Positions 45,524 to 55,380 of a DNA stretch of 64,000 nt are shown one piece after another (positions within the stretch are counted from its first letter, which is position 1; each line of letters begins with the position of its first letter). Source of the stretch: Aquiluna sp. GTDB lineage: Bacteria > Actinomycetota > Actinomycetes > Actinomycetales > Microbacteriaceae. The stretch covers positions 1 to 64,000 of the forward strand of contig JAPKCK010000004.1 of assembly GCA_028822985.1 (NCBI GenBank), read 5' to 3'. A program made the translations under genes and the position numbers. The notes beneath the pieces are model-generated. The model had not been told where the DNA came from, ran no database searches, and saw only the letters and a program-made list of their open reading frames with translations.

Positions 45524-45652
45524 CCGCATTTATGCGCCCAGTGTGAACATTGGCTAAACGCTGGAATGTAAGTCGTGGCTGTCGGTTGCAATGAATATAC
45601 GTCCCGAGACTTTCGTTCCGTATTCCATTCAGATCGAAACATTGAGGAAATC

Positions 45653-46093
45653 ATGACAGACAAGAACATAGTTGAAGTAGCAGTCGAAGCGGGAACTTTC
45701 ACCACTCTTGCAGCAGCACTGGGCGCAGCTGACCTAGTAGCAACCCTGCAGAGCGAAGGACCTTTCACAGTCTTCGCACCAACAGACGATGCCTTTGCGG
45801 CCCTTCCAGAGGGTCTAGTAGCAGCACTATTGCTACCAGAAAACGTAGACGCCCTAAAGTCAATCCTGACCTACCACGTAGTGTCCGGTCAGGTTCATGC
45901 CGCAGACGTCACCACCGGTGATGTTCCAACAGTCGAGGGCTCAACAATGGCCGTTGACACATCTGACGGCGTAGTTATCAACGGCACCGCCAAGGTAACT
46001 GCAACCGACATCGCAGCTTCAAACGGTGTTATCCACGTAATCGACGCAGTACTAGTTCCAGCAGGCGTCGACGCAGCAGCATTGCTTGCGTAA
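45653..46093 (+). CDS. Fasciclin-domain protein without signal peptide
   Basis: 146 residues from ATG at 45653, with TTGAGGAA upstream; the track start is 26 codons too early. It is a single FAS1 domain (about 5-145): H1 motif [25 protein letters not shown] and the H2 end [16 protein letters not shown]1 proteins act in adhesion outside cells, yet this one has no leader, unlike the paralogue next door. It is either kept inside, exported by another route, or a copy that lost its signal. About 80 percent identical by eye to the next gene over the domain. Confidence 0.88.
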
Positions 46094-46143: not shown

Positions 46144-46382
46144 TATTTAACCGGGCTTGCGAGACAAGAAACCCCCGCCAGACAGATTCGCCTTTCTGTC
46201 CTCCTTACCACAGCCCTTCCCCTGGAATTTACTGAGACTGCATTGCCAGTCTTCTCCTAGAAATAACTCAGTCAATTGCCACCGCGCTACCACGGAACTC
46301 AAATTTTCGATTGTTAACCTTTGAGAGCGTTTCGGGACTTTCGAAGCGCTTTGACCCAACACCCGAGAAAAATCGAGGCACG

Positions 46383-46961
46383 ATGAGAAAAAACAGACTT
46401 ACCGCCCTAGCTGGAATCGCAGTCGCGGCCCTAGTGCTCACTGGATGCGCACCCGCAGATGAGGTTGCAGAGCCAACGGAGACCACCGAAGAAGCTCAGG
46501 TCGATGAGGCCATGACCGAAGAAACGCTGGGAAACATTGTTGAGGTAGCGGTTGGAGCCGGAACCTTTACAACTCTGGCCGCCGCACTTGGCGCAGCTGA
46601 CTTGGTAACGACACTTCAGGGTGAAGGTCCGTTCACTGTCTTTGCACCAACTGATGACGCCTTTGCGGCACTGCCAGCTGGTCTTCTCGACGCACTACTT
46701 CTACCTGAGAACCTAGCTGTCCTTCAGTCAATCCTGACCTACCACGTTGTGGCTGGTGAGGTTTACGCCGCTGATGTTACGACCGGTGACGTGACAACAG
46801 TTGAAGGCTCGACCTTCGCGGTTGACACATCTAATGGTGTTGTAATCAACGGCACTGCAAACGTCACGGCTACCGACATAATGGCCTCCAATGGAGTTAT
46901 CCATGTCATCGACGCAGTCATCCTCCCACCAGGAGTTGACGTAGAAGCGCTGCTTGGCTAA
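46383..46961 (+). CDS. Fasciclin-domain lipoprotein
   Basis: 192 residues from ATG at 46383, the start that gives a proper lipoprotein leader ([21 protein letters not shown]). An acidic linker (about 22-47) leads to one FAS1 domain (about 50-190) with [25 protein letters not shown] and [13 protein letters not shown]. It resembles the MPT83 type of surface fasciclin lipoprotein in mycobacteria. Probable role: adhesion or surface interaction. It arose by tandem duplication with the gene at 45653. Confidence 0.92.
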
Positions 46962-47836: not shown

Positions 47837-47902
47837 ACGTAATTGTAAACAGGTGCAGGGGTGAGAAAAAAGAGCTGTCTCTGGTGGGTACTTCTGTTTT
47901 CC

Positions 47903-47979
47903 TGGGATAAGGGGAGTCTGTGTACCCCGCCAATTCAATGGTTCTAGACCTACGCTTTTGGAAATCAGACTATTTTTTC
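47903..47979 (+). repeat. Island end repeat A (decayed att site)
   Basis: Shares with repeat B (50671-50757) the blocks GTACCCCGCCAA, CAATGGTT, CCTA and AAATCAGACTATT in the same order and spacing, but the tRNA-Ala-like core is decayed (GGGATAAGGGGAGTCT). I read it as the outermost left end of the stacked islands. It overlaps the upstream extension of the DM13 ORF, which is why that extension is not coding. Confidence 0.7.
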
Positions 47980-48084
47980 TTGTGGACATCACCGTTTGTT
48001 TGCCCGCCGCTATGTCCAGCTAAACTTATTTGGTTGAGCAGAGCCGGACGTGGTACTGCCATAAAACCAGACAGTCGGGAATTC

Positions 48085-48666
48085 ATGACTAAATTTAGAC
48101 TAGCCACAGTGGTTTTAGTTGCCTCCTTCTCGCTGATTGCTCCAGTGGCTTCGTTCGCCCACGTGAACGCACCACATGAGGCAGACTCCGACAAAATCCC
48201 CACAGTCTCCCTCGCCGTCAACAAGGATGAGATGGGGGGCTTCAATGTTCAAATTACCACCGAGAACTTCACTTGGGCACCTGAGAACGCCTCTCAGGCT
48301 CACGTTCCCGGAGAGGGCCATGCCCACATTTACGTTGACGGAATCAAGGTCGGCAGAGTTTACTCAAGCTGGTTTCACTTGGACACAGCGACCCTGGGCA
48401 TAACCCCAGGAGTTCACTCAGTCGAAGTGGATCTCAACGGCAACGACCATGGATCATACGTTGTCGACGGGGAAAAGATTCAAGCCGCCGCCGAGATTTT
48501 GGTTGACGCTACCCCCATGAGTGCAATGCCCCATGGGGAAGAAATGGCGGAGGGAAACTTGGTGCAAACTGATGAGGTGGGCTTGTTGCCCGTCTTGGGC
48601 ATTTCCCTGCTTGGAGCATTTCTTGCTGGGGGAGGATACCTCCTGGGCAGAAGGTCCCGCAGTTGA
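48085..48666 (+). CDS. Exported His-rich protein with C-terminal membrane anchor
   Basis: 193 residues from ATG at 48085; the longer ORF of the track runs through repeat A. Signal peptide (about 1-26, ending SFAHVNAP), an all-beta-looking domain (about 30-140) with GEGHAHIYVDGIKVGRVYSS and GVHSVEVDLNGNDHG, an acidic Met/His stretch (MSAMPHGEEMAEG) and a C-terminal helix (about 165-187) before RRSRS. Many His and Met residues suggest metal binding, like CopC-type proteins, but this is not proven. It is the only cargo between repeats A and D. Confidence 0.75.
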   Translation: MTKFRLATVVLVASFSLIAPVASFAHVNAPHEADSDKIPTVSLAVNKDEMGGFNVQITTENFTWAPENASQAHVPGEGHAHIYVDGIKVGRVYSSWFHLDTATLGITPGVHSVEVDLNGNDHGSYVVDGEKIQAAAEILVDATPMSAMPHGEEMAEGNLVQTDEVGLLPVLGISLLGAFLAGGGYLLGRRSRS

Positions 48667-48687
48667 ATAGGTAAACCTCCATGGCAT

Positions 48688-48721
48688 AAAAAACTCCCCC
48701 TATTTCTAGGAGGAGTTTTTT
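48688..48721 (+). terminator. Terminator at island boundary D
   Basis: AAAAAACTCC / GGAGTTTTTT stem, ending a few nt before the tRNA-like core of repeat D. The same arrangement of hairpin then core occurs at repeat B and at tRNA-Ala itself. Confidence 0.85.
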
Positions 48722-48765
48722 ACTTCTTGGAGACTAGCTGGATCCACTCAGCCCCACATCGGCTT
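48721..48765 (+). repeat. Island end repeat D (tRNA-Ala 3'-end copy)
   Basis: TACTTCTTGGAGACTAG matches the tRNA-Ala terminus and its flank (TACTTGTGGAGACTAG) with one inserted base and one change. It continues GGATCCACTCAGCCCC, which aligns to repeat C (GGATCCATTTGCCCC). Candidate attachment site between two stacked islands. Confidence 0.7.
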
Positions 48766-48784
48766 GTTTGGGGGGCTGTTTTTT
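48749..48784 (+). terminator. Terminator-like hairpin inside repeat D
   Basis: CAGCCCC / GGGGCTG with a long loop, then TTTTTT. No gene lies just before it on the plus strand; it may shield the island from read-through. Confidence 0.6.
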
Positions 48785-48828
48785 GGAATTACAACTAAAA
48801 GATACAACTATTCTTCAGGCTGAAAAGA

Positions 48829-48914
48829 ACCCCCAACCCGTGAGCCTGATGGTTCTCACCACCTGGTTGTGGTCAAAGAAGTAGCGTCGGCCACGCTGCG
48901 TCCACAAAGGACGC
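48829..48914 (+). other. Structured non-coding segment ahead of a short ORF
   Basis: Several short perfect hairpins in a row: GAACC/GGTTC, ACCAC/GTGGT and GCGTCC-ACAAA-GGACGC. An alternative pairing CCAACC with GGTTG is possible. It precedes a 37-codon ORF with AAGGAAA before its ATG, so it could be an mRNA leader. Region 48667-49176 holds otherwise only repeat D and two terminators. Confidence 0.35.
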
Positions 48915-48935
48915 GTCGAAAAGGAAATCGCGACC

Positions 48936-49049
48936 ATGATGTGCTGCACGTTCATCACCGCGGCCTATATCTTTGGCGACCGCGAGGCTATCGCCAGCCT
49001 GGCGTCCTCTCCCAATCACCTCACGGCGAAATCAAAACATGCCAAGTGA
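48936..49049 (+). CDS. Possible 37-residue peptide
   Basis: ATG at 48936 with AAGGAAA 7-8 nt upstream opens a frame that begins MMCCTFITAAYIFG and ends in a basic tail (KSKHAK). Two adjacent cysteines and a short hydrophobic stretch are the only features. It is too short to judge, and the 62-aa overlapping frame at 48869 is less convincing. Treat as tentative. Confidence 0.25.
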   Translation: MMCCTFITAAYIFGDREAIASLASSPNHLTAKSKHAK

Positions 49050-49131
49050 TGTCGTAGCTACCGGGTTGATGTGATGGAGGTCGCCGGTAGTTATGGCAGC
49101 TCACCGCCACCCGATCTGTGAACGCACGAAA

Positions 49132-49167
49132 AACCGGATAGCTATTTCGTTCCATAGCTACCCGGTT
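49132..49167 (-). terminator. Terminator of DoxX-like island gene
   Basis: AACCGG-ATAGCTAT pairs with ATAGCTA-CCGGTT (14 pairs, one mismatch) and is followed by TTTT on the minus strand, just past the stop of the gene at 49177. Confidence 0.8.
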
Positions 49168-49176
49168 CGTTTGCTT

Positions 49177-49596
49177 CTAGCCAATTAGTGGCACGTCGAC
49201 CAGGGAGAGTAGGACCGCGGCAATCACCGACGCGGCAAAGAGTGACGTGTTCATTTTCCAGGTGTACTTGAATTCACCCCGCGCAATGTGAACGATTGCG
49301 GCAACAAGCATCGTCGAGGCCAGTCCAGCTGCTGCCGCCACCCCGACCAGGATGGCCCAGCCAAAGCCTGGGACGAAGTAGGCCGCGAGTGGGGCTAGAA
49401 CGATTCCGATGGCGCCAAGCAGTTCGAGCCACGCAATCAGTCGCACGACGCCGATAGGAAGGGGCTCAATCCAGCCAAACCCTGCGCCGAGCAGTGTGTC
49501 ACGAGAAGCTGTTGCCTTGAAGGACCCAGCCTTCCAGAAAGAAAATGCTGCGAATGCGGAGACTGCCAGCGCAGCAATAGCCAAAGCGACGTTCAT
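49177..49596 (-). CDS. DoxX-like four-helix membrane protein (island cargo)
   Basis: 139 residues from ATG at 49596, 11 nt after GAAAGG; the TTG at 49605 is too close to that site. Four membrane helices (about 3-22, 45-67, 72-101, 117-135) with the DoxX-like elements FSFWKAGSFK and IAWLELLGAIGIVL. Function unknown; DoxX-like proteins are often linked to redox or solvent stress. It is divergent from the HicB-like HTH gene, and the intervening region holds two palindromic operators. Confidence 0.8.
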   Translation of the reverse strand: MNVALAIAALAVSAFAAFSFWKAGSFKATASRDTLLGAGFGWIEPLPIGVVRLIAWLELLGAIGIVLAPLAAYFVPGFGWAILVGVAAAAGLASTMLVAAIVHIARGEFKYTWKMNTSLFAASVIAAVLLSLVDVPLIG

Positions 49597-49653
49597 AGAA
49601 ATCAATACCTTTCAAAAAGTGTGTAGAGGCGACGCAAGAGCGCGACCTGATAA

Positions 49654-49694
49654 GTCAAGTGCCTCTTGACTAGTTTTGTCAAGTTATACTTGAC
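49654..49694. promoter_or_regulatory. Two identical-half-site operators between divergent island genes
   Basis: GTCAAG-TGCCT-CTTGAC (49654-49670) and GTCAAG-TTATA-CTTGAC (49678-49694) are both perfect 6-bp inverted repeats with 5-bp spacers, centres 24 bp apart. A TATACT that could be a -10 box lies inside the second. Likely bound by the HTH protein encoded at 49700, controlling both directions. Confidence 0.75.
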
Positions 49695-49699
49695 ATGTT

Positions 49700-50110
49700 A
49701 TGACAAAAGTTGAATTTACCGTCGACTGCGAAGAGGAGCAGTCCGGTGGTTGGCGCGCCCGCGTCTCGAATCCAGAGTGCGAGGCCCACGCCCGCCGGCT
49801 CGACAAACTCAAAAAAGGCATCGCGCAATCAATTCACCAAGAAACCGGTGTGGAACTGTGTGAAATCGTGGTTCGACTCCAAGGGGTCTTCCCTGAGGCC
49901 GTCTCCTCGTTTGAATCCGCTCACGTAAAAATCGAACAGGCGAACCAGCTCCGCGACAAGGCTGCGCAAGAAATACGACAGATTGTCGCGTCTTTGCGGG
50001 CAGAGGGATTGACCATGAGAGATATCGCTGCCCTATTGGACATCAGCCCCCAACGAGTGGGGCAACTGGCCCAAAGCTCACAGACACCGTTGGAAGGAGA
50101 AGCGGGATAA
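49700..50110 (+). CDS. HicB-like protein with C-terminal helix-turn-helix
   Basis: 136 residues: an N-terminal HicB-like half RNase-H fold (about 1-62; SGGWRARVSNPECEAHARRLDKL), a helical linker, and a sigma-like HTH (about 105-128; GLTMRDIAALLDISPQRVGQL). No HicA toxin gene is present; the divergent neighbour is a membrane protein instead. Most likely a regulator that binds the two palindromes before it. The second operator ends five nt before the ATG, leaving no space for a ribosome-binding site. Confidence 0.78.
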   Translation: MTKVEFTVDCEEEQSGGWRARVSNPECEAHARRLDKLKKGIAQSIHQETGVELCEIVVRLQGVFPEAVSSFESAHVKIEQANQLRDKAAQEIRQIVASLRAEGLTMRDIAALLDISPQRVGQLAQSSQTPLEGEAG

Positions 50111-50118
50111 GAAAAGGG

Positions 50119-50207
50119 TTTGTGGAGCCTAGGGGGATCCATTTGCCCCTCCAAATCAATCAACTCGGACTGTTGTTTTTCTAAATCAGACTAAAAATCA
50201 GACTATT
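50119..50207 (+). repeat. Island end repeat C (tRNA-Ala 3'-end copy)
   Basis: TTTGTGGAGCCTAGGGGG copies the tRNA-Ala end with one change before the run of G. It is followed by GGATCCATTTGCCCCTCCAAATCAAT and by two direct repeats AAATCAGACTA (50183-50193 and 50196-50206). The repeats resemble arm-type integrase sites. No hairpin terminator directly precedes this copy. Confidence 0.75.
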
Positions 50208-50366
50208 GGAGGCGAGTCCTGGCAAGACGAGACAGGCCACCACGCTACATTTGCGGTTATCCTGAAATTCTGGTCTGTTAGCAAAAGGGGTTTTACGAAA
50301 TTTGTAATTGCTCTCATCCAAATATTTGACTCTGCGGTTCATATCTTCACCGGTCAAATAGAGCCT

Positions 50367-50597
50367 TTGAGGTTAGCAGCGAGCCTCTTGATACTTATTT
50401 GGCTATTTGCAATCAAGAATCAGAGATACGACTGGGGAATTGCCAGTCTTTATATTTTTGCAAACTCTTTATTCCTCTTTCAAAGTGGCGTGCTGAATGA
50501 TGGAAGTCCGAGGATATTTTTCCTAGCAGCGGTGATCTCGACTTCACTCCTATCTTGGAAGTTGATTTCTAATAGAAAGAAGACTCTCGGTTTTTGA
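50367..50597 (+). CDS. Island membrane protein, start uncertain
   Basis: 76 residues from the first usual start (TTG at 50367), with helices at about 2-16, 24-41 and 50-68 and a basic tail (SNRKKTLGF). The frame stays open upstream and reads KFVIALIQIFDSAVHIF in perfect style; at 50295 an ACG follows AAAAGGGG by four nt, exactly where an ATG would be expected. Either ACG starts a 100-residue protein or the start was lost by mutation. No family recognised. Sole cargo between repeats C and B. Confidence 0.6.
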   Translation: MRLAASLLILIWLFAIKNQRYDWGIASLYIFANSLFLFQSGVLNDGSPRIFFLAAVISTSLLSWKLISNRKKTLGF

Positions 50598-50642
50598 TTT
50601 TCGAGTGTCATCAAAGACAAGAGGATTCAGCAATCAAAAGAA

Positions 50643-50664
50643 AACCCCTCCCGAAGGAGGGGTT
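50643..50664 (+). terminator. Terminator at island boundary B
   Basis: AACCCCTCC / GGAGGGGTT around a CGAA loop, seven nt before the tRNA-like core of repeat B. No long T run. Confidence 0.65.
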
Positions 50665-50670
50665 CCACTT

Positions 50671-50757
50671 TGTGGAGACTAGGGGGGTCTATGTACCCCG
50701 CCAAACCAATGGTTTTAGGCCTATGTTTTTAGAAGTCAGACCATAAATCAGACTATT
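50671..50757 (+). repeat. Island end repeat B (best tRNA-Ala 3'-end copy)
   Basis: The first 19 bp (TGTGGAGACTAGGGGGGTC) are identical to the 3' end of tRNA-Ala plus two flanking bases at 55306-55324 region. It continues GTACCCCGCCAA, CCAATGGTT, CCTATG and two TCAGAC repeats ending AAATCAGACTATT, matching repeat A. Best preserved attachment-site copy in the window. Confidence 0.82.
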
Positions 50758-50791
50758 ATTTTTCTTTCAGGGATACGAATTGTCTAAATAA

Positions 50792-51217
50792 CTAGTCAGT
50801 TTTAGGTGCCCGCCAGGTCCATGAGTGGTGAATAACAAGTGCAAGCAACACGACTTCCACAGCACTGCCTAGAACGTAGTAGCTCCATTCACCAACGGCA
50901 CCTCCGACAATTGTGATGGCATAGAGCCCAGCCAAACTGATGCTCACAACGCGATTCAGCCTTCTGGGCATAACAAGGCTGAGGTAGATCATCAATGACG
51001 GGATAATCACGTAGATCGTTACACCCAGAAGGAATGGCTGCCCAACATCAAATACGAAAACCTTTCCTTGATCCAAGGCCGCGCGAAAGTCAGGACGAAA
51101 TAGGGAGAAAAGATCCACGTAGGCGAAAATCATCATGGTTGTAGCCCAAAGCGCGGCCATCCGAATGCGGACGTCTATAGGGGCCGAAGCCTCGAGTGTT
51201 TTCAATGAATAAGACAT
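50792..51217 (-). CDS. DUF6326-like four-helix membrane protein (island cargo)
   Basis: 141 residues: four membrane helices (about 21-42, 57-80, 87-105, 111-130), with VRIRMAALWATTMMIFAYVDLF at the start and IHHSWTWR at the end, matching small DUF6326-type proteins whose role is not known. AAAGGAAC precedes the ATG. It is divergent from a TetR regulator with a palindrome in between, so it is probably the regulated gene. Confidence 0.8.
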   Translation of the reverse strand: MSYSLKTLEASAPIDVRIRMAALWATTMMIFAYVDLFSLFRPDFRAALDQGKVFVFDVGQPFLLGVTIYVIIPSLMIYLSLVMPRRLNRVVSISLAGLYAITIVGGAVGEWSYYVLGSAVEVVLLALVIHHSWTWRAPKTD

Positions 51218-51233
51218 AAAGTTCCTTTCGATT

Positions 51234-51247
51234 CTTACAAGTGTAAG
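51234..51247. promoter_or_regulatory. Candidate TetR operator
   Basis: CTTACA-AG-TGTAAG is a perfect inverted repeat lying directly before the regulator start and about 17 bp from the divergent membrane-protein start. Confidence 0.65.
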
Positions 51248-51250
51248 GTG

Positions 51251-51931
51251 ATGATAGCATCAAGTCGTGGAAGCGCAAATACATTGTTGACTCAGAGGGC
51301 GATTATCGAAGCCGCGGCTGAGGTAGCTGATGCTGGCGGCGTGGCGGCGGTGACGATGAGAAGTGTCGCCAAGGTTTTGGGTGTTGAAGCAATGTCCTTG
51401 TACTACCACGTGGCTAACAAGGATGCCCTGCTGGATTCACTCGCCGATTGGGTTTTTGAACAAATTATTTTGCCCGATCTAGACGAGCATTGGCGACTGG
51501 GGATGATCGCACGAGCTCACTCCGCCAGATCAGTGTTGTCAAAACACTCGTGGGCCCTAGGGATGCTTGAGTCCAGACCAACACCTGGAGAAAAGCTTCT
51601 GCGACATCACGACCGTATTCTGGGCTGTTTGCTTCGTGGCGGTATGAGTCCAGTACTCGCAGCCCATGCGTTTTCAGCAATTGATTCCTACATCTATGGT
51701 TTCGTTCTTACTGAAGCAAGCATCTCTTCCTCTCCAGAAAACCTAGTGGAAGAAGGGTTCTCAGCCGAAGTTGCTAAGCAGGCTGAAAAGTATCCCAACA
51801 TGGCCTTGATAGCCATGGCAGCCGTAAATGACTACAATTTTACGTTTGAGGATGAGTTTGACTATGGCCTAAGCCTGATTTTGGATGGCTTTGATGAACG
51901 TCTGCAAAACCAAAACAAAAACACAGGCTAA
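51251..51931 (+). CDS. TetR/AcrR-family regulator with tetracycline-repressor-type C-terminus
   Basis: 226 residues from ATG at 51251 (or GTG one codon earlier). HTH at about 12-60 (AIIEAAAEVADAGGVAAVTMRSVAKVLGVEAMSLYYHV), then a TetR_C_1-like ligand domain (LLRHHDRILGCLLRGGMSPVLAAHAFSAIDSYIYGF, here described in parts). It should repress itself and the divergent DUF6326-like gene until a small ligand binds. A 36-nt stretch of its 3' part recurs at 54935. Confidence 0.88.
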   Translation: MIASSRGSANTLLTQRAIIEAAAEVADAGGVAAVTMRSVAKVLGVEAMSLYYHVANKDALLDSLADWVFEQIILPDLDEHWRLGMIARAHSARSVLSKHSWALGMLESRPTPGEKLLRHHDRILGCLLRGGMSPVLAAHAFSAIDSYIYGFVLTEASISSSPENLVEEGFSAEVAKQAEKYPNMALIAMAAVNDYNFTFEDEFDYGLSLILDGFDERLQNQNKNTG

Positions 51932-52006
51932 TGAAAAGCGTGTTCCAGTTTCCGGGATAATTTGGGTTTCCAAGAAAACACTTTGACTGATTTTCTGATT
52001 CTTAGT

Positions 52007-52054
52007 TTGACAATCTTGAGTGGATATGGTTAGTTAGTTACATAAGTAACTAAC
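52007..52054 (+). promoter_or_regulatory. GntR operon promoter and operator
   Basis: TTGACA (52007-52012) with a weak -10 about 17 bp on; a perfect 22-bp palindrome GTTAGTTAC-ATAA-GTAACTAAC (52033-52054) covers the likely transcription start. It is a typical site for a YtrA-type GntR regulator, encoded 22 bp downstream. Confidence 0.75.
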
Positions 52055-52075
52055 CAGCTAACCAAGGGGGCTTCA

Positions 52076-52432
52076 ATGGACGAGAGTGGTCGCCCAATTT
52101 TCTTGCAGTTGGCGGAGCAGCTGGAGAACCAGATTATCTCCGACCAATTCAAAGAAGAGTCGCAGGTTCCATCTATAAACGAGCTTGCGACCTTTCATAG
52201 GATCAACCCCGCGACTGCGCTGAAGGCAATCAATCAACTAGTCGACGATGCCACGCTCTACAAAAAGCGCGGCATCGGCATGTTTGTAAATGCCGGTGCT
52301 AAGCAGGCCTTGATTACAAAGCACAGCCAAAAATTCCGGGCTGAGTTTGTCGAGCCTCTAATCATTGAGGCACGGAAGCTAGGAATCACTAGCCAAGAAA
52401 TTATTCAGATGCTCGGAAAGGAGTCGTTCTAA
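52076..52432 (+). CDS. GntR-family regulator, YtrA subfamily
   Basis: 118 residues: a winged-helix domain (about 8-75; PIFLQLAEQLENQIISDQF, VPSINELATFHRINPATALKAINQL) and only a short C-terminal helix pair (about 85-118), as in YtrA regulators that control ABC transporters. AAGGGGGC precedes the ATG. It overlaps the ATPase start by 1 nt and should repress its own operon through the palindrome at 52033. Confidence 0.92.
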   Translation: MDESGRPIFLQLAEQLENQIISDQFKEESQVPSINELATFHRINPATALKAINQLVDDATLYKKRGIGMFVNAGAKQALITKHSQKFRAEFVEPLIIEARKLGITSQEIIQMLGKESF

Positions 52433-53322
52433 TGACCAAGGTAATTGAGGTTAACAACCTCACCAAAAGCTATCGAGGTGCGACCGCCGTGGACAGCGTC
52501 TCACTAGCTATAGAGGAAAACGGAATCTACGGCCTGCTTGGTCGCAACGGCGCTGGCAAAACCACCCTCATGAAGCTCGTGGCTGGTCACGAGCTTGCAA
52601 GCACAGGAGAAATAAGTGTCTATGGTGCCAGCCCGGTCGAGAACAGTGCCGTGCTTGCAAATATGGCATTCATAAGGGAGTCGCTCCGCTACTCAGAAAA
52701 CTACAAGATTGGGCACGTTTTGAAAGCGGCCAAGATTGCATTCGCCAACTGGGATGATGCGTTCGCACAGAGTCTGGTCGATAAATTCCAGATTCCACGC
52801 AAGCGATTGGTCAGAAAATTGTCTCGTGGGCAGTTATCTGCGGTCGGGGTGGTGGTCGGCTTAGCCGCCAGAGCTCCAATCACTATTTTGGATGAGCCGT
52901 ACATCGGAATGGATGCCGTCGCTAGAAAGCATTTCTACGACATTCTGCTTGCTGACTACATCAAACACCCCAGAACCATTGTTCTCTCAACTCACCTAAT
53001 AGACGAGGTGGCTGACCTGTTGGAGCACGTCTTTGTGATCGATCAAGGTCGAATCATTCTGGATGCAAACACCGAGGACTTGCGTGGGTCAGCAGCGGTA
53101 ATCGAGGGGTCGACGGAGTCAGTTGACGATGCTGTTGCCGGCTTTGTGATTTTGGAGTCACAGACCATAGGTACTCAAAAGCGAGTTGTCGCCCAAGGGC
53201 TCAAAGCTGAAGATGCTGCACGTCTGCAAAGTGCAGGTCTCGCAGTAAAACCAGCAACCCTTCAACAACTCATTATTAGCCAAACAAACATGGATTCATC
53301 CGAGAAAGTGGAGGTCGCCTAA
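52432..53322 (+). CDS. ABC transporter ATPase under GntR control
   Basis: 296 residues: Walker A GRNGAGKTT (about 37-45), Walker B ITILDEPYIGMDA, switch His in STHLIDEV. The signature motif reads LSRGQLSAVGV instead of LSGGQ, seen in YtrB/BcrA-like exporters. The C-terminal third (about 215-296) is an extra domain. It overlaps the permease start by 1 nt. Substrate unknown; such operons often answer wall-active antibiotics. Confidence 0.9.
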   Translation: MTKVIEVNNLTKSYRGATAVDSVSLAIEENGIYGLLGRNGAGKTTLMKLVAGHELASTGEISVYGASPVENSAVLANMAFIRESLRYSENYKIGHVLKAAKIAFANWDDAFAQSLVDKFQIPRKRLVRKLSRGQLSAVGVVVGLAARAPITILDEPYIGMDAVARKHFYDILLADYIKHPRTIVLSTHLIDEVADLLEHVFVIDQGRIILDANTEDLRGSAAVIEGSTESVDDAVAGFVILESQTIGTQKRVVAQGLKAEDAARLQSAGLAVKPATLQQLIISQTNMDSSEKVEVA

Positions 53323-54020
53323 TGACTACCTTGCCAATCCAGCAGCGAACACTAGTCCAAAGACTTTGGAAGGTAGTGGGAATAAACGTTGTTAGGCCTT
53401 GGGTTTTGGTCCTGCCACTTGTAATCATGACCGCCCTGTTTCTGGTGACCGGCATCCTTTCCTGGCTAACGATCGCCTTTGTTCCAGCGGATGGCCAGCT
53501 ACGGTTTTCCCCTGAGTTCTTCTTGATAATTTTCCTCTTTTTAACTGCAAACCAAACCATTTATCACGAATACGCCGTTTCACTGAGCTTTGGCATCTCA
53601 CGAAGCGACTTTTACTTCGGGTCGCTGCTGAACTTTGCCTTGCAATCTATTTGGTATGCGGTGGTCTGCCTGTCTATTGCCGCGGTCACTGGGTCCTTTT
53701 TCGGAAGTGAATTCTCAGGAGTGGGGGTCACTAACTTTGTGAGCCTTATTGTGCTGTTTATCGGCACACAAGCCCTTGCTGCAAGCACCACGGCCATCTA
53801 CCTGCGCTGGGGCAAGCCCGGGATGCTGACATTCTTCGGTGGCCTGGCGCTCGTGCTTGTTGCACTGCCAGTTTTAGCTGTGTCAGACCTCGGAAGCGAG
53901 CTACCAACACTCAACAGTGAAACCTTGACCATGCTAGAAACTAACGTTATTGGAAGTGCTGTTGCACTAATCCTGATAATCCTTGGCTACCTCATTATTC
54001 GCAAGGCGAGCGTGCGGTAA
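53322..54020 (+). CDS. ABC transporter permease under GntR control
   Basis: 232 residues, six membrane helices (about 27-52, 62-80, 95-118, 130-152, 160-180, 205-226). NQTIYHEYAVSLSFGISRSDFYFGS resembles the coupling segment of YtrC/ABC-2-like subunits. No enzymatic motif. Third and last gene of the GntR operon, followed by a terminator at 54090. Confidence 0.85.
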   Translation: MTTLPIQQRTLVQRLWKVVGINVVRPWVLVLPLVIMTALFLVTGILSWLTIAFVPADGQLRFSPEFFLIIFLFLTANQTIYHEYAVSLSFGISRSDFYFGSLLNFALQSIWYAVVCLSIAAVTGSFFGSEFSGVGVTNFVSLIVLFIGTQALAASTTAIYLRWGKPGMLTFFGGLALVLVALPVLAVSDLGSELPTLNSETLTMLETNVIGSAVALILIILGYLIIRKASVR

Positions 54021-54089
54021 TTCGCTAGTTGAAGGACTGTCTATTATCTGAACATTTGCAACGCAGGTTGTTGCAGGTTCTAGACAAGT

Positions 54090-54119
54090 AAAAACCCTCT
54101 CGGTTACGGGAGGGTTTTC
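54090..54119 (+). terminator. Terminator after the GntR-ABC operon
   Basis: AAAACCCTC / GAGGGTTTT stem with a short loop. It is followed after 20 nt by TTTGGGGGGATGAC, which may be a strongly decayed tRNA-like core. Confidence 0.8.
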
Positions 54120-54213
54120 AGTATCAGCACCAAACTTTGGGGGGATGACTGTCGTGATTCACGCCAGCGAGTATTGCACCGTTGACATTCCAAAATCTGA
54201 TCTCGGAGAATAA

Positions 54214-54254
54214 TGTAAAGCGCGCTTGACAAATTGTAAAGTGTGCTTTACATT
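54214..54254 (+). promoter_or_regulatory. Promoter with two palindromic operators before the membrane protein/XRE pair
   Basis: TTGACA (54226-54231), 17-bp spacer, TACATT (54249-54254). Two operators interleave with it: TGTAAAG-CGCG-CTTGACA (54214-54231, one mismatch) and TGTAAAG-TGTG-CTTTACA (54235-54252, perfect), centres 21 bp apart, two helical turns. AGGAGG follows before the ATG at 54272. Confidence 0.85.
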
Positions 54255-54271
54255 CCTCACAGGAGGTAACA

Positions 54272-54700
54272 ATGAACAAGAATCAGCGTGAAGCAAGTGT
54301 GCAACTGATTGCAATTCCGATCAGTGTTGTGGTGTTTTTTATTTTGATGTGGGGTGAATTTTCAAAACCGGCTTCTGACTACGAGTTCGTCTGGCCAATA
54401 CTGTGGGCTATCGTCGCTTCAGTTATGGCGTCAATCCTTGTAACCATTGGGTTCGCCATGATTTTTCCTAATTGGCTCGAAAACTCAATCAAGGACGAGC
54501 GAGACAGGCGCATCCACAGTCTCGGCAAGGACTACACCATGGGCTTTTATGTTTTGGGCAGTGTGCTGGCGTTGGTGTTCGCAAAGCTTGAACTGGATTA
54601 CTACTGGATAGCCCTGACGGTATTTATGTCTGCGTCAATGGCCAATTTTGCTCACTCTCTGGTCAAGCTATTGATGTACAGGTTTGGGACCTTCGAATGA
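54272..54700 (+). CDS. Four-helix membrane protein paired with XRE regulator
   Basis: 142 residues: helices at about 10-27, 40-66, 88-106 and 108-130, with the cytoplasmic loop KDERDRRIHSLGKDYT between helices 2 and 3. This layout occurs in DUF2178-like proteins that are often coded beside a small XRE repressor; exact function unknown. Strong AGGAGG ribosome-binding site. The stop overlaps the XRE start as ATGA. Confidence 0.85.
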   Translation: MNKNQREASVQLIAIPISVVVFFILMWGEFSKPASDYEFVWPILWAIVASVMASILVTIGFAMIFPNWLENSIKDERDRRIHSLGKDYTMGFYVLGSVLALVFAKLELDYYWIALTVFMSASMANFAHSLVKLLMYRFGTFE

Positions 54701-54909
54701 GTTCCGGGCTAAAAAATAAACTTCGCGAGATACGCGTGGCATCAAACTCAATGACCCAGCAGCAGCTTGCGACTCTGGTGGGCGTCTCGAGACAGACCAT
54801 CATCTCAATTGAGTCTGGTCGCTACTCGCCATCCTTAGAGTTGGCCATCAAGATATCTGAGGCTCTTGATTATGATCTACAGCAACTTTTTTGGCTCGCT
54901 AAGGATTGA
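54697..54909 (+). CDS. Small XRE-family regulator
   Basis: 70 residues, nearly all one HTH domain: NKLREIRVASNSMTQQQLATLVGVSRQTIISIESGRYSPSLELAIKISEAL (in parts), like YozG/SinR-type repressors. Likely binds the two TGTAAAG-N4-CTTTACA sites before its operon and represses it. It overlaps the membrane-protein gene by 4 nt. Confidence 0.92.
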   Translation: MSSGLKNKLREIRVASNSMTQQQLATLVGVSRQTIISIESGRYSPSLELAIKISEALDYDLQQLFWLAKD

Positions 54910-54910
54910 G

Positions 54911-54973
54911 ACCAACGAAGCTGAGCCAGAGCAGGAAGGGTTCTCAGCCGAGGTCGCTGAGCAGGCAGAGTGA
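54911..54973 (+). pseudogene. 3' fragment of a TetR-type regulator gene
   Basis: The frame reads EPEQEGFSAEVAEQAE then stop. EGFSAEVAxQAE repeats residues near the C-terminus of the TetR protein at 51251; the DNA 54935-54967 matches 51752-51784 with about five changes. No HTH part remains. It is a leftover of a second copy of the TetR module. Confidence 0.6.
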
Positions 54974-55072
54974 AAATAGGGGTTAGAAGAAACATCCCCG
55001 CCCCACCAGACACAGTAGTTGACTATCTTCCGCTTGGCTGGAAAGGTAAGGTCACTAGAAAAAGGAGCGAAA

Positions 55073-55267
55073 ATGGGCTGGTACTAGGTTGGATTTGCGA
55101 TCGGTATCTACATGACCTGGGGTGGTGCAACCAAGACCTCCGCAAAGCCTTATTTCTTTCTCCACGCTAAGGCGAGCCTGATCTGGAGGAAACACGCCCA
55201 CACTTTTCTTGTGATCTCCGGGCTTGCGGTGTCACAAGTGATGCTTGTTCTGGCATTGGCTCGTTAA
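55073..55267 (+). pseudogene. Small membrane protein gene with in-frame TAG at codon 5
   Basis: AAAGGAGCGAAAATG is an excellent start signal. The frame reads MGWY, TAG, then VGFAIGIYMTWGGATKTS and on for 64 codons to TAA, ending in a hydrophobic helix (FLVISGLAVSQVMLVLALAR). A later ATG at 55112 could still give 51 residues but lacks a ribosome-binding site. The stretch 54910-55307 holds otherwise only the TetR fragment and the terminator; the 66-aa frame at 54970 is not convincing. Confidence 0.5.
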
Positions 55268-55269
55268 AA

Positions 55270-55301
55270 GAAAAACCCTCCCATTTCTGGGAGGGTTTTC
55301 T
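55270..55301 (-). terminator. Terminator of tRNA-Ala
   Basis: AAAACCCTCCC / GGGAGGGTTTT with a 6-nt loop and flanking A and T runs. It serves the tRNA operon on the minus strand and the last island gene on the plus strand. Confidence 0.9.
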
Positions 55302-55307
55302 TACTTG

Positions 55308-55380
55308 TGGAGACTAGGGGGGTCGAACCCCTGACCCCCTGCTTGCAAAGCAGGTGCTCTACCAACTGAGCTAAGTCCCC
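55308..55380 (-). tRNA. tRNA-Ala(TGC), the island attachment target
   Basis: Minus strand: acceptor GGGGACT/AGTCTCC, D arm GCTC/GAGC, anticodon arm with TGC in CTTTGCAAG, T arm AGGGG-TTCGACC-CCCCT. Discriminator A. Its last 17 bp recur as partial copies at 48.73, 50.12 and 50.67 kb. It follows tRNA-Ile downstream of gyrA. Confidence 0.97.

Follow-up and report, generated by a model that had tools for sequence, protein, structure and literature searches.

The question that this locus raises is why the 3' end of a tRNA gene recurs several times in the DNA beside it and what the segments between these copies are. The window (the whole stretch of 64,000 nucleotides that was analysed) is part of a 120-kb contig from a 1.28 Mb genome, 98% complete, of Candidatus Aquiluna (Microbacteriaceae), and it carries a tRNA-Ala(UGC) gene that is adjoined by tRNA-Ile. 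Leftward of tRNA-Ala(UGC), copies of its 3' end, TTGTGGAGACTAGGGGGGTC, recur as a 20-bp core: the copy at 50670 is identical to the tRNA end, the one at 50120 has two mismatches, the one at 48725 has five, and the one at 47899 is degenerate. The distances from core start to core start are, from left to right, 826, 1395, 550, and 4635 bp. These copies, named A to D, are the left ends of four tandem elements without an integrase, of 0.83, 1.40, 0.55, and 4.64 kb, at the 3' end of tRNA-Ala(UGC). The tRNA gene and the left ends are as follows.

55307-55380, minus strand: tRNA-Ala(UGC), the attachment gene (attB), predicted by ARAGORN; its 3' end forms the core at 55305-55324
50670-50757, plus strand: left end B, with the core at 50670-50689, a spacer, and arm repeats at 50735-50744 and 50747-50756; TCAGAC family
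50120-50207, plus strand: left end C, with a core and arm repeats at 50185-50194 and 50197-50206; TCAGAC family
48725-48814, plus strand: left end D, with a core and repeats at 48788-48797 and 48801-48810; ATTACAACTA family
47899-47974, plus strand: left end A, with a degenerate core and a single repeat at 47964-47973; the orthologous site is present in genome G264

The motifs quoted in the preliminary description, including GGGG-N10-CCCC in B, were all found where it had placed them, as were the two TCAGAC repeats in B and in C, while A has one. It had also claimed that the copies share sequence to the right of the core that has no counterpart in the tRNA, and this was borne out by a shared block of about 70 bp in which A, B, and C are significant even without the core. 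A left-end profile, built from other genomes only and containing no window sequence, matched B with E = 8e-25, C with 1e-15, A with 5e-13, and D with 1e-5. Over the whole 64 kb window the profile matched nothing beyond A to D except the 20-bp core within the tRNA itself, and in the reversed window the best E value was about 0.006. The motif AATCAGACTATT alone, with up to two mismatches, gave 8 matches where 3.9 were expected, which is not significant. Scanning relatives with the profile had been set beforehand as a possible refutation of the signature, and no strong match was found away from tRNA-Ala: in the 23 genomes of the genus all matches of the full model down to E of about 0.04 sit at the tRNA-Ala array and the first one elsewhere, in G013, has E = 0.048.

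The preliminary description had taken D to be a fourth copy of the same signature, and here it has to be corrected because D belongs to a second arm family that is found at tRNA-Ala in another genus. The repeats of D are ATTACAACTA and GATACAACTA at +63/+76, and its core is CTAGCTGGATCCAC. This second family, with the core CTAG[T/C]TGGATCCAC and ATTACAACTA repeats, is common in the genus of Pontimonas. A left end of the D type (CTAGTTGGATCCAC...ATTACAACTAAAAATTACAACTA) is present at tRNA-Ala in genus g30, in G030, G316, and G398 (one repeat), and also in G279 and G104 on contigs where no tRNA was seen. Once D proved to be of a second family, two earlier ideas, of D as a TCAGAC end in decay and of a steady increase in decay away from the tRNA, were both rejected. 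One further left end, in G255, has TTCAAACAG repeats and no visible integrase in the part of its contig that was covered. One tRNA gene is shared by at least four arm families, the arm specificities being TCAGACTATAAA, ATTACAACTA, TTCAAACAGAAA, and TTTACGACA.

The segments that lie between the cores, which we call cassettes, and the hairpins at their borders are as follows.

47919-48744, plus strand: cassette A-D (826 bp), with one gene for a secreted or membrane protein at 48085-48666
48745-50139, plus strand: cassette D-C (1395 bp), with a DoxX_2 protein at 49177-49605 (minus strand) and an HTH protein at 49700-50110 (plus strand)
50140-50689, plus strand: cassette C-B (550 bp), with one small membrane-protein ORF at 50367-50597 (start uncertain)
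50690-55324, plus strand: cassette B-tRNA (4635 bp), with DUF6326, TetR, GntR, ABC ATPase, permease, and XRE genes and a relic of the F43 gene
50645-50662, minus strand: terminator-like hairpin adjoining core B
55271-55300, minus strand: terminator-like hairpin adjoining the tRNA

Both borders of the window cassettes carry the core of tRNA-Ala, and their right ends have no arms. No integrase or transfer genes were recognised in the four of them. Terminator-like hairpins are present at most cassette right ends. The 24 cassettes that could be delimited, here and in other genomes, range from 0.46 to 4.6 kb with a median of 1.2 kb.

Several other features were observed in and beside the array. The F43 relic at its right end (55019-55261) is a small membrane-protein gene with an in-frame TAG after MGWY, and over 81 residues it is 88% identical to a G260 protein. 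Part of the TetR gene, 42 bp long (51745-51786), recurs with 83% identity at 54928-54969, just past the XRE gene, and this second copy is the point at which similarity to the right end of a G260 cassette starts. Within the B-tRNA cassette there is an extra terminator-like hairpin (54090-54119) that is 83% like the one beside the tRNA; it could mark a lost cassette border, and the left-end profile has no match there. An inverted repeat at 54212-54254, AATGTAAAGCGCGCTTGACAA / TTGTAAAGTGTGCTTTACATT, lies upstream of the gene at 54272 and its XRE regulator and looks like a putative operator. Directly left of the array are two tandem, similar secreted-protein genes (F8; 45575-46093 and 46311-46961), each followed by a near-identical CCAGGGAGAGATCCCTGG hairpin.

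The exact 22-bp arm pair was found on 11 contigs among 84,980 species genomes. All 11 come, judged from their titles or neighbourhood, from small-genome aquatic Microbacteriaceae with arrays at tRNA-Ala, and each of these contigs itself carries tRNA-Ala except L104; that contig holds the left end, and L107 from the same genome holds the right end and tRNA-Ala. L104 and L107 are titled Gulosibacter massiliensis but their neighbourhood is that of small-genome aquatic Microbacteriaceae, and this is probably a mislabelled MAG. Most of the genomes compared are fragmented MAGs. The arm pair was present in 6 of 400 genomes of the family, spread over four genera, and in 9 of the 23 genomes of the Aquiluna genus, being absent from several complete ones.

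The arm repeats keep a fixed distance from the core. Repeats of the TCAGACTATAAA family lie at +64/65 and +76/77, and in nearly all left ends the TCAGACTAT repeats start 64-65 and 76-77 bp past the start of the core. The elements fall into two classes. In class I (G251, G251b, G267, L103, L106, L107, and L109, with a remnant in G257 and one repeat in G260) the right-hand core too is accompanied by a repeat pair, at about -73 and -61. Class II, with arms at the left only, comprises most cassettes, among them the four of the window. Among two-armed elements, minimal ones of 0.5-0.7 kb turn up repeatedly in several genera. The preliminary description had also spoken of inverted arms around the core; dyads there do exceed those of shuffled sequences (mean stem 4.7 versus 3.3), but the spacer length varies and the copies are related, so that this part of the claim has partial support.

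Elements that do carry an integrase were found at the same tRNA gene. In G257 an element of 9.0 kb lies in tRNA-Ala and codes for a tyrosine integrase of 431 amino acids (PF00589), with TTCAAACAGA repeats at +65/+77 and -74/-62. In G208 an element of 6.6 kb, again in tRNA-Ala and with an integrase (PF00589), has TTTACGACA repeats at +55/+66/+78 and -74/-62; its cargo (L053, 2433-8365) is an EcoRI-like adenine methylase and a GmrSD/HNH type II restriction protein. Thus both of these, like class I and unlike the four window cassettes, have arms on both sides. Their geometry matches that of the TCAGAC ends, which supports the earlier reading of the locus as a tyrosine-recombinase attachment site with arm-type direct repeats. 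Because G257 and G208 share this geometry at both ends with different repeats, the TCAGAC repeats are very probably arm-type sites of an integrase. Like positions with unlike sequences at both ends are what should be seen if the arm sites were those of related integrases.

The preliminary description had predicted that an intact helper element with an integrase beside TCAGAC repeats would be found. It was not, and the sole trace of one is in G257, where an older TCAGAC right end lies left of the integrase element. Directly beside the repeats of this older end is a frame of 95 amino acids (L054, 10932-11249) that resembles the G257 integrase at its N-terminus, with E = 2e-14. In lambda-type integrases the N-terminus is the arm-binding region. 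Since this N-terminal fragment lies beside TCAGAC repeats, a TCAGAC integrase probably once existed at this locus. No TCAGAC-armed integrase was found among the PF00589 proteins of the 23 genus genomes and five other genomes, nor with the 95-amino-acid fragment in 400 genomes of the family; one extra match of the fragment, in G407, was rejected as an antisense frame of another gene. Searches with the full integrase in 395 genomes of the class, in phage records, and in viral contigs were negative or gave distant integrases only. No intact integrase with ATTACAAC arms turned up in these searches, and there were no TCAGAC arms near the non-Xer integrase loci that were fetched. Only two tyrosine recombinases (PF00589), of about 300-350 amino acids, are encoded in the window's genome, as would be expected for XerC and XerD.

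Several cassettes are shared by genomes that are otherwise distant. The F44 cassette is 95% identical from att to att in G253 and G258, while neighbouring conserved genes are 71% identical; its left neighbours differ in these two genomes, and on the tRNA side it adjoins another cassette in G258 but the tRNA itself in G253. The F17 cassette of 0.5 kb is 90% identical from att to att in L103 and L109, where the backbones are 65-66% identical. In the window itself the right 400 bp of the array (54926-55324) have 91% identity to the right end of an internal G260 cassette, against 68-73% for the backbone. Because the cassettes are 90-95% identical where the backbone is 65-71% identical, comparison of the sequences indicates that the cassettes move. 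A GNAT acetyltransferase gene is found both in a ATTACAAC cassette of G030 and in a TCAGAC cassette of Rhodoluna (56% identity, 4e-70), and the small F43 gene is found in Aquiluna and in genus g30. Since the F44 cargo is 97-100% identical and its left end only about 60%, the histories of end and cargo are separate. Neither a circular form nor active excision was seen.

The most likely explanation, which we consider probable, is that A to D are attL-type ends whose elements, small, integrative, and non-autonomous, entered successively at the 3' end of tRNA-Ala by means of an integrase supplied in trans. The tandem copies of the core, the fixed arm geometry, the restriction to tRNA-Ala, the cassettes common to distant genomes, and their lack of integrase genes are observed. 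Each element would supply a left end made of part of the core, a spacer of about 45 bp, and two direct repeats with a 12-bp period, to which the N-terminal arm-binding domain of a lambda-type tyrosine integrase would bind. The rest of the element would be a single gene or a small number of them, in most cases a terminator, and a copy of the tRNA 3' end. We infer that a helper integrase acts in trans and that the cassette passes through a circular form: the integrase, coming from occasional helper elements of the G257 and G208 kind, would bind the arms and core of the excised cassette and insert it at the tRNA 3' end. With its copy of that end the cassette would restore the tRNA gene, and the terminator-like hairpin would terminate the tRNA transcript. 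The next element would then enter between that copy and the tRNA, and older cassettes would be pushed away from it. After entry, cassettes may be shuffled or lost, and recombination of arm repeats may have a part in this; between two left ends it could act through the direct-repeat arms and give hybrids of end and cargo and also the single repeat of copy A. What speaks against this explanation is that the searches gave no intact integrase with TCAGAC or ATTACAAC arms, that most cassettes are one-armed, at the left, whereas both integrase elements are two-armed, that end and cargo of F44 differ in their histories, that neither circles nor excision were seen, and that most of the genomes are fragmented. 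It is conceivable, though we doubt it, that the one-armed sites, each a core with left arms followed by a gene or a few, a terminator, and the next core, are themselves cut out as circles and put in at tRNA-Ala by integrases that always travel separately, giving a gene pool common to several genera of streamlined aquatic actinobacteria. Such a system would work as an integron does, with a visiting helper element and a tRNA gene in place of the integrase and attI.

If the cassettes are instead classical CIMEs, then full integrase-bearing islands lost their integrase and most of their genes in place, and the cassettes are fossils that were not moved in trans. The TCAGAC element in G257, with its integrase N-terminus and right end, is such a remnant, copy A is degenerate, most right ends have no arms, and the formation and accretion of CIMEs are well known (PMC5704250). 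However, cassettes of 0.5 to 1.2 kb without an integrase have the same borders in different genomes and are 90-95% identical against 65-71% for the backbone, and therefore they moved after the loss of the integrase or with a helper that has since been lost; the recurrence of the minimal two-armed elements in several genera also argues against decay in place. In a check for an ICE or IME origin no conjugation genes were recognised, and the one remnant with an integrase fragment is that in G257. Decay in place is a possible but rather unlikely account of the array.

A further account is that imported DNA recombined by homology at the conserved tRNA-Ala/tRNA-Ile locus and at the repeated left ends, and that the arrays were shuffled mostly in this way, with no need of an integrase. 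This would fit the different histories of left ends and cargo as well as the high identity across the tRNA pair, and the direct-repeat arms could act as short homologies. We regard it as improbable, since cores form the borders of the shared cassettes, even of F44 in G258 where another cassette sets it off from the tRNA, since core and arm geometry are the same in the integrase elements, and since it leaves the origin of the ends unexplained. An integron-like system, in which a dedicated integrase encoded elsewhere in the genome, or else XerC/XerD, acts on the att site of each cassette, is suggested by the cassette-sized units, the repeated sites, and a gene pool common to genera, but it is very improbable: the sites, at the 3' end of a tRNA, are made up of a core with direct repeats, these repeats match the arm-type sites of lambda-type integrases, and the genome has no third tyrosine recombinase. 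That the copies are not ends of mobile elements at all but merely duplicated tRNA 3' ends with terminators would agree with their adjoining terminator-like hairpins and with a 20-bp core that is tRNA sequence. This is refuted by the 60-70 bp past the core, which are conserved at the tRNA-Ala locus only, have no counterpart in the tRNA, and mark the borders of cassettes common to genera.

Streamlined aquatic actinobacteria are thought to have scant room for mobile DNA. Our results suggest that single genes may still circulate between their genera via the tRNA-Ala locus, with integrase-less units of as little as 0.5 kb docking at one tRNA gene and apparently dependent on rare helpers. They offer a minimal element that can be tested and a defined docking sequence with which more can be found, and the four natural arm specificities on one target should be useful for the study of how integrases diverge in arm recognition. 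For Pontimonas salivibrio CL-TW6T, phage genes and plasmids have been reported absent (PMC6106888).

A literature search found no published description of such arrays for this bacterial group, and they have to be compared with systems from elsewhere. In the ICESt1 family of Streptococcus, CIMEs and island accretion give integrase-less, att-bounded segments stacked at one target gene, and these descend from ICEs or IMEs (PMC5704250). The likeness lies in repeated insertion between an older element and the target gene. CIMEs usually span many kb, whereas the units here are of 0.46-4.6 kb, often with one gene, are near-identical in several genera, and belong to at least four arm families at one site. 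The ssrA islands of Dehalococcoides are likewise in tandem at the 3' end of an RNA gene with 20-bp repeats, and 15 of them, without an integration module, were proposed to be cis-mobilizable; they differ in using a serine recombinase (DsiB) and in commonly having their own integrase, and the available text of that report describes no paired arm repeats (PMC3146451). In the additive island fGI-2 of Ca. Methylopumilus, also a streamlined aquatic bacterium but of another phylum and with another tRNA, the last 20 nucleotides of tRNA-Lys recur and the variable content ranges from 330 bp to 42 kb; the account of it, in the portion accessible to us, contains no analysis of arm sites, end structure, or mobility cassette by cassette (PMC10872708). 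Tycheposons of Prochlorococcus and others, as far as they are covered in that same portion, are again cargo units at tRNA genes of small-genome aquatic bacteria, but they are transposons of 4-200 kb with a tyrosine recombinase (PMC10872708). The window cassettes have no recombinase and three of the four are under 1.5 kb, and most units here are far smaller than tycheposons. With the gene cassettes of integrons the arrays have in common single-gene units, a shared recombination site, and a gene pool common to lineages; they differ in that the window's genome apparently has no integron integrase, and in the anchoring at a tRNA gene and the arm-type direct repeats. The arrays therefore resemble CIMEs and additive tRNA islands and yet are of the size of integron cassettes and of several arm families. 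What is new in comparison with the known kinds is the cassette size, the arm geometry with four specificities, and the repeated transfer between genera of near-identical units that have no integrase.
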